Made by a program: the position numbers and the translations under genes. A stretch of 64,000 nucleotides of DNA. Source: Nitrosopumilus adriaticus (GTDB lineage: Archaea > Thermoproteota > Nitrososphaeria > Nitrososphaerales > Nitrosopumilaceae). This document shows positions 54,418 through 59,509 of this stretch, piece after piece. Position 1 is the stretch's first letter; the number at the start of each line of letters is the position of its first letter. The notes beneath the pieces were generated by a model. That model was not told where the DNA came from. It was given only the letters and a program-made list of their open reading frames with translations, and did not search any database. The DNA is taken from contig NZ_CP011070.1 in assembly GCF_000956175.1 (NCBI RefSeq), positions 372,001-436,000 on the forward strand, written 5' to 3'.

Positions 54418-55281
54418 TTAAGGCTTTATTGGAATTTGAATAAATGGTGTTCCGCCTTCACCAACTACAAGTGGTAGTTTTCCATCCCATGCTTGAGTCT
54501 TTAACCAATCCAAATAGTTTGGATTCTCAGCTAGGGCTCTATTGATTATTGCAATGGCTTCGGCCTCACCTTTGGCTTCTGCAATATTTGCATTGGCTAA
54601 ACCTATGGCGTTTGCCTCTGCTTGTCTGGCTTCTACTTCGATTCTTTTCAAGTCATTTTCTGCTCTAAGTGCATTTTGCTCTGCCTCTACTTTAGATTCG
54701 ATTGCTGATGCAAATAGTGCAGAGAATTCAAAATCTGTAATTGAAATTACTTCTGTTACGACATTAAATTGATTTAATCTCTCTCTGATGGAAAATTCTA
54801 TGTCTTGTTTGACTAGTGGTCTTTTTGTAATTAATTCTTCAGCATTATAATTTGCAGTTACTTGTTTTACTGTCTCCTCAATTGCTGGCTGAATTACTCT
54901 GTTTTCATAATCAAGTCCTAAATTTTTGTATAGTGTGTGTACTTGCTCTTTATCTGGATGATAATTGACAGTTACTGTTGTCTCTACTGTTTGAAGATCT
55001 CTTGATGCACTTCTAGCTTCACTTGCATATTTTAGGGTACGAACTTCAATATCTACAACTTCGTCTTGGAATGGAACTACGAAATGTATTCCTTCTTCAA
55101 GTGGAGGTTGTGATAGATCAACTGCATTCCAGTGTAATAGAACTCCTCTGTGACCTGCATCTACAATTTTTACAGAAGCTGATGCTACTACTCCGACAAT
55201 AATTAATAGAAGAATTGCAATTCCAATGCCCTTTGCTGCACTCATATTGACATTAACTTTAGGTGATTGATACTTTGACAA
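54418..55281 (-). CDS. SPFH/prohibitin-family membrane protein
   Basis: 287 residues. N-terminal membrane helix (GIGIAILLLIIVGVVASASV), then the SPFH domain: VDAGHRGVLLHWNAVD, VPFQDEVVDIEVRTLK and TVTVNYHPDKEQVH, and a long coiled coil with Ala/Glu repeats (AEQNALRAENDLKRIEVEAR). Matches prohibitin more closely than stomatin. Prohibitins scaffold membrane complexes and proteases. No partner protease is adjacent. Confidence 0.9.
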   Translation of the reverse strand: MSKYQSPKVNVNMSAAKGIGIAILLLIIVGVVASASVKIVDAGHRGVLLHWNAVDLSQPPLEEGIHFVVPFQDEVVDIEVRTLKYASEARSASRDLQTVETTVTVNYHPDKEQVHTLYKNLGLDYENRVIQPAIEETVKQVTANYNAEELITKRPLVKQDIEFSIRERLNQFNVVTEVISITDFEFSALFASAIESKVEAEQNALRAENDLKRIEVEARQAEANAIGLANANIAEAKGEAEAIAIINRALAENPNYLDWLKTQAWDGKLPLVVGEGGTPFIQIPIKP

Positions 55282-55377: not shown

Positions 55378-55806
55378 ATGGTAGAACCTAATTTTTCATG
55401 GATTTATCTGGTAATCTTCTTAGCAATTCCACTATCAAGAATAATTCCCCGATTATTGGCAAAAAGAGGCATTGGATTCAAACCATCTCAAACAATCAAA
55501 GAAAATCAATTTCCTCCAGATTTTGATGGTAATCCTCAAAGATCTTCAATGGATTCGTCAAAACCTGAAATTAATCCCTCAAAACCCCAAACAAAGACTA
55601 TGCTGGTTTTAGGGGAGCTAAACCGAGGCACAAAATACTTTGAAAATATCCAAAAAAACACAGGACTTCATAACCAAGAACTTGAATCTATCTTGGAATC
55701 TCTAGAAAAGGATGGCCTGCTAAAAGTACATCAAAAACAAGGATTGTTTGGCCTCAAAACCGAATTACTCCCCACAGATAAGGGATTTAAGGAATATTAT
55801 TCATAA
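55378..55806 (+). CDS. membrane-anchored winged-helix protein
   Basis: 142 residues. One N-terminal helix (WIYLVIFLAIPLSRIIPRLL), a proline-rich linker, and a C-terminal winged helix (KTMLVLGELNRGTKYFENI, then NQELESILESLEKDGLLKVH). A membrane-bound DNA-binding regulator is plausible. It lies directly upstream of the tfb leader. Confidence 0.65.
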   Translation: MVEPNFSWIYLVIFLAIPLSRIIPRLLAKRGIGFKPSQTIKENQFPPDFDGNPQRSSMDSSKPEINPSKPQTKTMLVLGELNRGTKYFENIQKNTGLHNQELESILESLEKDGLLKVHQKQGLFGLKTELLPTDKGFKEYYS

Positions 55807-55824
55807 AATGCTCATCATACTCGG

Positions 55825-55833
55825 TTTAAATTA
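55825..55833 (+). promoter_or_regulatory. TATA box of the tfb leader transcript
   Basis: TTTAAATTA is centred about 26 nt before the ATG of the short ORF at 55854. This gives tfb a transcript with about 35 nt before its TTG start, unlike most genes here. Confidence 0.5.
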
Positions 55834-55853
55834 GCGTGAAGTGGTAACTCTAC

Positions 55854-55895
55854 ATGATTCACATTAGTGGAAAAACAGGTGAGTTTGTTTGGTAA
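55854..55895 (+). CDS. 13-codon leader ORF overlapping the tfb start
   Basis: ATG start exactly at the predicted transcription start, so it would be leaderless. It encodes MIHISGKTGEFVW. Its stop TAA (55893-55895) overlaps the first codons of tfb by 7 bases. The ORF also contains AGGTGAG (55877-55883), the Shine-Dalgarno-like element for the tfb TTG. Termination at this stop could hand ribosomes to the tfb start. Existence as a translated peptide is inferred. Confidence 0.45.
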   Translation: MIHISGKTGEFVW

Positions 55896-56794
55896 GTTCT
55901 AATCAAAATGCTAGTTGCATGCGATGTGGAAAAAATTCCATGCTAACTGATGATACTACCGGCGAACAATTTTGCTCTAAATGTGGTTATGTTGTTTCTG
56001 AAAAAACTCAAGAATCCGGTCCAGAATGGAGATCGTTTCAAAAAGATGGCGGCGCAGATCCTGCAAGAACCGGAGCTCCATCATCATTACTAATGCATGA
56101 TATGGGATTGTCTACTGTAATCAATCCCTTAAACAAAGACGCATCAGGAAAACCACTTTCAACATCAATGAAAAGTACAATTGAGAGATTAAGAACTTGG
56201 GATAACCGAAGTCAAGTTCATGAGCCAGTTGATAGAAACTTGAGACAAGCACTTGGTGAATTAACCAGATTAAAAGACAAGATTGCAATTTCTGCAAACG
56301 TTCTTGAAAAAGCAGCTTACATTTACAGAAAAGCTTTGGAGAAAAAACTTGTAAGAGGAAGATCAATCTCTGCAATGATTGCAGCATCACTTTATGCTGC
56401 ATGTCGAGATACTGCAACACCTCGAACTCTAAAAGATGTTGCAGATGCTGCAAACGTAAAAAGAAAAGATATTGCTAGATGTTATAGATTATTACATTAT
56501 GAATTGGAATTGAAAATGCCTGTTGTTGATTCGGTACAATGTATTGCTCGAATTTCAAGCAAGCTTGACATTACAGAAAAAACAAAACGATTTGCAATCA
56601 AAGTGCTCAAGGAGGCCCAAGAGCGTGAAGAGTCTGCTGGAAAAGATCCAATGGGTCTTGCAGCATCTGCATTATACTTGTCATGTGTACATAATGGCGC
56701 ATCTGTAACTCAAAGAGATATTGCCGAAGCTGCAGGTGTAACCGAAGTGACTATCCGAAATCGTTACAAAGGCTTGAAAGCCAGTCATTCATAA
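55889..56794 (+). CDS. tfb: transcription initiation factor TFB (TFIIB)
   Basis: Recruits RNA polymerase to TATA-bound TBP. 301 residues: an N-terminal zinc ribbon (CMRCGKN and CSKCGYV), a B-reader-like segment, and two cyclin repeats (ISANVLEKAAYIYRKALEK and ITEKTKRFAIKVLKEAQE) with a C-terminal helix-turn-helix (VTQRDIAEAAGVTEVTIRNR). The TTG start is required because the first zinc Cys is residue 10, and no other start precedes it in frame. AGGTGAG lies 5 bases upstream. A short leader ORF overlaps the start. Confidence 0.95.
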   Translation: MVSSNQNASCMRCGKNSMLTDDTTGEQFCSKCGYVVSEKTQESGPEWRSFQKDGGADPARTGAPSSLLMHDMGLSTVINPLNKDASGKPLSTSMKSTIERLRTWDNRSQVHEPVDRNLRQALGELTRLKDKIAISANVLEKAAYIYRKALEKKLVRGRSISAMIAASLYAACRDTATPRTLKDVADAANVKRKDIARCYRLLHYELELKMPVVDSVQCIARISSKLDITEKTKRFAIKVLKEAQEREESAGKDPMGLAASALYLSCVHNGASVTQRDIAEAAGVTEVTIRNRYKGLKASHS

Positions 56795-57994: not shown

Positions 57995-59509
57995 TTACTG
58001 ATAGTGGGAACTGTTTTCTCCTACCTGGAATCTAATTTCTGGGTCATAGTTTGTTTTAGATGCTGATGTTAAAATAATATCTATTAAATTTTCATTTTTA
58101 ATAATATCTTTTCTCAACAATTTTTGTAATTTTGAAACCGTAATTTTTCTATTTTTAGCTAAAATTTCGGCAAAACCGTCTTCATTGCTAAATATCATGT
58201 CTGAAATTAATGCTACATTGATTTTTCTATTTTTTTTAGATTCTTTAATGAACTCTAAAGCGTTTTTAGAAAATTGCAAGATTTTTCCTTTTCCTATTTG
58301 ACTGTAAGCATGTTTTAAAAAAAGCACGCATTCTTTTGTACTTAGTTTTGTTACTAGAATATTTCCTCGCTGTTTCATAACAAACGTGTCAAACAAATTT
58401 CTTTCAGTTAATTTTTCAAAGAAATTCCTATCTCCTCTAAAATGTCCTGAATTGACAAAAGCTATGTCTGACTTTGTATGGTTTTTTAGACAATCTGAAA
58501 TAAAGTTTCCAAAATTTGTCGTTCCTTTTCTTAAAGAAACCTCAGTAGCATCTAAAACTGTGTCTTTTGGAAAAATTTTGACAACATTGTTTGATGGTAA
58601 CTTGTTTTCATTTTTTAATTTTTTATACCATGAGTCAATTTCTTTTCTTATCTTTTTTGATGGTGATATTTTTTGATAATGTTTTGAATTTAGAACCAAT
58701 AATTTATTTTGCAAAAACCCTTTTGGTTCATTTGTGTTTTCTTTATCTGAAAAAATTATTTGAATTGTTCTTGCGTTTGATTGGCCTTTTACTAACATAC
58801 ATCTATCTAATTTAGAATTATAAGAAATTAGTTGATTATGATCATGCCCTCCTAAAATTATTGATTTTAATGGCCATTTTTTTTGTATAGTTTTCTTTAG
58901 CTCAATATCTTCTACATCCCCCATATGTGATAAAACTAACAATAATTTGATCTCTGGAAATTTTTCTTTTATTTCGTCAATGATTTTTAGGGATTGTTGG
59001 GCATTTTTCATTTTAAATCCATTTTCTACAGCTTTGTTTGCCGTCATTTTACCTACAATTCCAATTAGTGCAATCTTTGGTGATTTTTTAGGCCATACGT
59101 CATACTGTAAAATATTTCTTGTAATCTCTTTTGGTGCTGTTAAATTTGTAATAATGTAATTGAACTTGGATTCTTTTATTCTACTTTTTAAAATTTTCAA
59201 GCCTCCATCAAAATCATGATTTCCCAAGGTGCAGTAATCTAACTTGCATTCATTTAGAATGCTGATCATTTGCTTTCCCTTGAAAAAATTGCTTAGAAAC
59301 GAGGGAAATAGAAAATCTCCACTATGAACAAATAAAATCTCATTTTCTTTGTTTTTAGATAATATCTCTAAAATTCTGTAAATTCTAGCAAATCCTGGGA
59401 TCTCAATTTCTTTTCCATTTTTAGATTCATTTAGAAAATATGTGTCTGTAATGTGGACAATTACCCGTTTTTTTGTAATATCTTGAATAATTTTTAAAAT
59501 ATTTTTCAC
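57995..59509 (-). CDS. 5'-nucleotidase / UshA-like metallophosphoesterase
   Basis: 504 residues. N-terminal metallophosphatase: VIVHITDTYFLN (D.H replaced by D.Y), FVHSGDFLFPSFL, TLGNHDFDGG, LLVLSHMGDVED and ILGGHDHNQLI. The C-terminal half matches the UshA/5'-nucleotidase C domain, with TVLDATEVSLRKGTTNFGNF and INVALISDMIF. The first metal motif is altered (DTY instead of DxH), so activity is uncertain. No signal peptide, so likely cytosolic, unlike bacterial UshA. Confidence 0.82.
   Translation of the reverse strand: MKNILKIIQDITKKRVIVHITDTYFLNESKNGKEIEIPGFARIYRILEILSKNKENEILFVHSGDFLFPSFLSNFFKGKQMISILNECKLDYCTLGNHDFDGGLKILKSRIKESKFNYIITNLTAPKEITRNILQYDVWPKKSPKIALIGIVGKMTANKAVENGFKMKNAQQSLKIIDEIKEKFPEIKLLLVLSHMGDVEDIELKKTIQKKWPLKSIILGGHDHNQLISYNSKLDRCMLVKGQSNARTIQIIFSDKENTNEPKGFLQNKLLVLNSKHYQKISPSKKIRKEIDSWYKKLKNENKLPSNNVVKIFPKDTVLDATEVSLRKGTTNFGNFISDCLKNHTKSDIAFVNSGHFRGDRNFFEKLTERNLFDTFVMKQRGNILVTKLSTKECVLFLKHAYSQIGKGKILQFSKNALEFIKESKKNRKINVALISDMIFSNEDGFAEILAKNRKITVSKLQKLLRKDIIKNENLIDIILTSASKTNYDPEIRFQVGENSSHYQ

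Follow-up and report, generated by a model that had tools for sequence, protein, structure and literature searches.

The gene for a transcription factor B (TFB) of Nitrosopumilus adriaticus is preceded by a leader open reading frame (ORF) of only 13 codons, whose origin as the relic of an alba cistron is well supported by comparison with related loci. This relic is probably still translated, from the 5' end of a leaderless transcript, and would hand ribosomes over to the TFB gene by termination-reinitiation. The window on which this study is based is the whole stretch of 64,000 nucleotides, G000:C1:372001-436000 of the 1.80 Mb genome. The comparison comprised 131 rows, identical stretches having been merged before counting.

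Promoter and leader of the TFB gene

Downstream of a 142-aa ORF ending at 55806, the sequence ATACTC-GG-TTTAAAT is followed by an ATG at 55854, 12 further sense codons and a TAA (55893-55895) that overlaps the start of TFB at 55889. The features are:

55817..55831, plus strand: promoter, consisting of the ATACTC element (55817-55822), in what we take to be the BRE position, and the TATA box TTTAAAT (55825-55831); from the sequence
55854..55895, plus strand: leader ORF, ATG and 12 codons (13 sense codons, MIHISGKTGEFVW) with stop TAA, read as a relic of the alba cistron; from the sequence, its presence in 7/7 close rows and the alba start position
55877..55883, plus strand: Shine-Dalgarno (SD) motif AGGTGAG inside the leader ORF, with 5 nt between it and the TTG; complementary to the 3' end of the 16S rRNA, ATCACCTCCT
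55889..55895, plus strand: 7-nt overlap TTGGTAA of the TFB start TTG and the leader stop TAA; from the sequence
55889..56794, plus strand: TFB, 301 aa, TTG start; PF00382 (E 6.8e-37) and PF08271 (E 1.6e-9)

The earlier note had located the TATA box at 55825, the ATG at 55854, the 13-codon ORF with its stop overlapping the TTG of TFB and the AGGTGAG within the leader, and all of these were found at their places. TFB has TFIIB repeats and a Zn ribbon, and from the preceding in-frame stop to the Zn ribbon TTG 55889 is the sole ATG, GTG or TTG. A weak TTG start, present in 5/8 rows of the clade to which the window belongs (clade A, window included), would suit a start that depends on the delivery of ribosomes. 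Right behind the leader ATG, a 5-bp hairpin (55858-55871, TTCAC/GTGGA; GTGAA in L095) appears conserved within clade A when inspected by eye. The genes flanking TFB, likewise judged by eye, encode a prohibitin-like (SPFH) protein (54418-55281, minus strand) and a 5'-nucleotidase-like metallophosphatase (57995-59509, minus strand).

The leader ATG is located 29 nt from the TATA box at 55825. At 450 gene starts, taken from the window and 20 further stretches of the same genome, TATA-like hexamers are concentrated at -32..-29 (52, with 24 in the next bin, versus ≈9 in each 4-nt bin between -100 and -37); the genome prefers starts ≈25-32 nt downstream of a TATA box. A TATA-like hexamer at -33..-26 of the own start was present in 66 of the 450 genes, compared to 15-25 at four other offsets. 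The leader ATG falls inside this peak, and we infer that the transcript begins at this ATG and that the leader ORF is itself leaderless. A second promoter within the leader was ruled out, as the overlapping pair at 55825/55826 is the only occurrence of TATA-like hexamers in 55700-55900.

With up to one mismatch allowed, the genome contains the promoter string ACTC[GA]GTTTAAAT in two places, at the TFB of the window and before a second copy of TFB that is preceded by alba. The ATACTC element upstream of the TATA box recurs in the promoters of alba-TFB loci and of the three clades with a short ORF (A, B and C, described below) despite differing TATA boxes; it might be an element contacted by TFB and thus a hint of autoregulation.

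An alba gene in the position of the leader

The second TFB (C1:830151) is 85% identical to that of the window, and the shared promoter string lies 331 nt upstream of it. The gap is filled by a 94-codon alba gene (PF01918, E 2.8e-12), whose ATG is located 29 nt from TTTAAAT, matching the leader ATG of the window, and whose stop lies 11 nt before the ATG of the second TFB.

A protein tree was calculated for 82 of the 131 rows (all rows of at least 79% identity and 11 named rows) and comprises a TFB clade of 72 rows and a sister group of 6. Within the 72 rows, TFB is preceded by alba in 22 (shortened to 55 codons in L145 and strongly diverged in L146) and by a short ORF of 8-23 codons in 40. The short-ORF rows are found in clade A (8 rows including the window; 13 codons, 9 in L096), clade B (6 rows; 8-9 codons with a GTG start) and clade C, the largest (26 rows; 22 codons in 20 of them, 17-23 in the others). 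Six rows, chosen by eye and then measured, have neither, and their TFB start, 30-37 nt from the TATA box, is nearly leaderless. Four rows (L034, L157, L158, L060) were left unassigned; L157 has a possible leader ORF of 11 codons, with a 4-nt overlap at the ATG of TFB. The TFB starts of L118 and L133 were set by their Zn ribbon.

The distance from TTTAAAT to the start codon is 29 nt in 36/36 rows (22/22 with alba, 8/8 of clade A, 6/6 of clade B), and the start codon of the leader is therefore, by position, that of alba. The leader thus shares both promoter and start position with the alba-TFB loci. A transcript start at the leader ATG, as the earlier note had proposed, gains support from this comparison, as the same spacing serves a whole alba gene in all 22 rows. 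The alba-TFB order also extends to further genera of this family (L167, L168; L211-L213) and is for this reason probably ancestral.

Possible remains of alba also lie behind the start codon. The spacers of clades A and C resemble the 3' end of alba (z 5.3 and 6.1, reached by 0/200 shuffles), although these z values are inflated because the rows are related. For single rows the similarity was weak, being not significant in the window (p 0.106), with p 0.023 for L096 and 0.003 for L121; similarity to the alba tail was not found in the spacers of clade B (z -0.1), nor was alba N-terminal sequence found in the leader (clade A, z 0.4). Among the papers listed in a short literature search, none addressed alba-tfb operons or transcript starts of ammonia-oxidising archaea, judged by title or opening of the abstract, and the search was too thin to claim that none is in print.

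Parsimony gave six state changes on the quick tree, in which SH-aLRT support is 96-99 for clade A and its core, 98 for clade B and 91 for clade C, with 36/68 inner branches below 80. AU tests do not reject joint clades (A+B 0.598, A+C 0.276, B+C 0.258, A+B+C 0.139) and are thus compatible with shared as well as with independent losses of alba in A, B and C.

In the rows L149, L150 and L153-L156 of the sister group a different small gene (starting MTKRIEEELAEMNRLKRLELEF) is followed by TFB, and by eye its last codons resemble the C-terminal tail of Alba. One genome of this set has a separate alba further upstream (L214). This looks like a head swap in which the alba tail was retained beside TFB.

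Open reading frames and drifting peptides

In the close relatives of the window the ATG, the 13-codon ORF and the overlapping stop are free of indels in 7/7 rows, while the fourfold sites of TFB differ at 33%. Clade A contributes the start codon at the alba position, the retention of this codon together with ORF and overlap, and the likeness between spacer and alba 3' end. The position of the stop in this clade is no evidence by itself, because shuffled spacers with the ATG given yield an expected 6.5/8 rows with the stop at -14..+12 relative to the start of TFB. The weight of the case comes from the wider comparison, and our proposal of coupling is derived mainly from clade C.

The peptides encoded by the 22-codon rows of clade C have largely drifted apart: mean pairwise identity of the ORF is 25% at the amino-acid and 51% at the nucleotide level, in comparison to 79% for the promoter and 87% for TFB. 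The pN/pS ratio of the clade C leader is 0.81 (0.64-0.71 in close pairs), versus 0.013-0.028 for TFB and 0.26 for 20 alba genes. The frame nevertheless remains open, with an in-frame stop in 0/26 rows as against 22 and 24 rows in the other two frames, and with counts of 0, 7 and 7 in eight rows chosen to be less than 60% identical. Start-to-start distances between leader and TFB vary from 55 to 79 nt in all three phases, and the stop tracks the TFB start. Its end lies at -11..+1 of the TFB start in 26/26 rows, compared to 6.3/26 expected from shuffled spacers (start codon and last 12 nt kept). Across the three clades the frame is open to the TFB start in 40/40 short-ORF rows with the end of the stop within -11..+7, but this proximity is partly selected because the rule by which short-ORF starts were picked required a stop end not more than 15 nt from the TFB start; the comparison of frames and the promoter spacing are less affected by this rule. 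Such a pattern would be expected if selection acted on uninterrupted reading up to the TFB start and not on the peptide. It lends support to the hand-over of ribosomes to TFB, one of two possibilities raised in the earlier note.

We propose the following course of events. The ancestral state would be a leaderless transcript coding for Alba and then TFB, with ≈10 nt between the alba stop and the start of TFB. The alba gene would then have been reduced to a few codons, both in the lineage of the window, which now has two copies of this TFB, and in further lineages of Nitrosopumilus, while the 5'-terminal start codon, the open frame and the stop beside the TFB start were retained. Ribosomes would presumably enter at the leaderless AUG and translate 13 codons; after termination at the UAA that overlaps the UUG of TFB they would restart there, with help of the AGGTGA motif.

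The most serious competitor, which we regard as unlikely overall but as still conceivable for clade A, is a passive relic: alba was deleted, transcription continues from the old start and TFB is initiated afresh via the SD within a 35-nt 5' leader, no matter whether the short ORF is translated. AGGTGA can pair with the end of this genome's 16S rRNA, GGATCACCTCCTTA, and the presence of an SD before TFB means that de novo initiation is possible, which also weakens the case for coupling. The motif is a perfect AGGTGA at good spacing, and SD 4-mers precede TFB in 8/8 rows of clade A, 6/6 of clade B and 23/26 of clade C (37/40 short-ORF rows), in comparison to 17/28 alba or alba-like rows, 1/6 nearly leaderless rows and a background of 0.20. 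The stop position of clade A is as unsurprising for a passive relic as it is uninformative for coupling. A passive relic is at odds with clade C, where the frame stays open despite the drift of the peptide and the stop follows a shifting TFB start, and an ATG at the 5' end would load ribosomes anyway.

Coupling itself has to accommodate the six rows without any leader ORF, the lack of alba-tail similarity in clade B, the non-significant similarity of the window row by itself and the absence of a genome-wide excess of similar leaders (8/450 genes versus 4-13 at control offsets, in a scan that misses TTG-started genes such as the TFB of the window because it takes the first ATG). The earlier note had named relatives lacking the short ORF as a refutation of its proposal, and this applies in part, with a whole alba instead in 22 rows and neither in 6. 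Rows without a short ORF fit the hand-over of ribosomes, because the TFB start then adjoins the stop of a cistron or lies close to the 5' end.

The proposed coupling of translation in relation to known systems

The second possibility of the earlier note, a leader that masks the TFB site, finds no support, and neither does translational control of TFB as such. In this reading ribosomes on the leader would cover the TFB start and lower its output, possibly in a regulated way; the 7-nt overlap of the ORFs and the SD within the leader are in its favour. We consider it highly improbable since the predicted fold is not unusual (z -0.99), Rfam yields no match, the overlap imposes the terminal Trp codon, and the leaders of clade B and most of clade C end before the TFB start. 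A structured RNA leader was rejected on the same fold value and the lack of an Rfam match at the gathering threshold, and amino-acid sensing via the terminal Trp codon because this codon is dictated by the overlap [A/T]TGGTAA. Bacterial leader-peptide attenuators also feature a short translated leader before a gene. The likeness ends there, as neither conserved sensor codons nor an alternative RNA structure were found here and the peptides drift.

A functional micropeptide encoded by the leader has even less to recommend it. With 0.52 in clade A and 0.64-0.81 in clade C, its pN/pS is somewhat less than 1, but part of this nucleotide constraint may be due to SD and overlap; with 25% identity within clade C and, by eye, no likeness between the clades, a conserved micropeptide was rejected on peptide drift. 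A chance ORF is barely conceivable: once the ATG is given, most rows of clade A would be expected to have an ORF that ends near TFB, but in 14/14 rows of clades A and B the start codon coincides exactly with the alba start position, and the frame is kept in 26/26 rows of clade C.

Archaea are known to couple the translation of genes that overlap or are separated by very short distances (Huber et al. 2019, PMC6728339; 2023, PMC10666635), and the leaders described here fit the limits given there. In common are a stop and a start that overlap, as do leader stop and TFB start in the window, or lie a few nt apart, and an SD within the upstream frame. The pairs described there differ in that both genes code for proteins, often of one complex; in the present case the upstream protein has disappeared, leaving 8-23 codons. 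Archaeal short ORFs in front of a normal gene are also described for Haloferax volcanii (PMC4983044) and Methanosarcina mazei (PMC11456600); those of H. volcanii code for 15-31 aa in 5' leaders of 150-250 nt, whereas the leader predicted here has 35 nt, begins with the ORF and can be traced to a gene.

It is conceivable, and we put it forward tentatively, that a protein gene was eroded here to a peptide-independent loader of ribosomes, in which the leaderless start, the unbroken frame and the stop by the next start were kept and the protein was discarded. TFB would then be translatable only near a 5' end or by coupling, and the leader would be both an obligate entry device and a relic of a once tied output of Alba and TFB. 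The usual explanation for overlapping genes is a need for two proteins in matched amounts. With the upstream protein gone and the geometry of coupling left, the leader would allow coupling that serves to load ribosomes to be told apart from coupling that serves stoichiometry. The natural series of upstream ORFs with 94, 92, 55, 22, 13, 9 and 8 codons or none speaks to how much upstream ORF an archaeal ribosome needs to restart. Nitrosopumilus maritimus has eight TFBs, the most expressed of which shifts in biofilms, as stated in PMC12448741, and the choice of TFB matters in this group. The leader also bears on how abundant marine ammonia oxidisers set the level of one of several TFBs.
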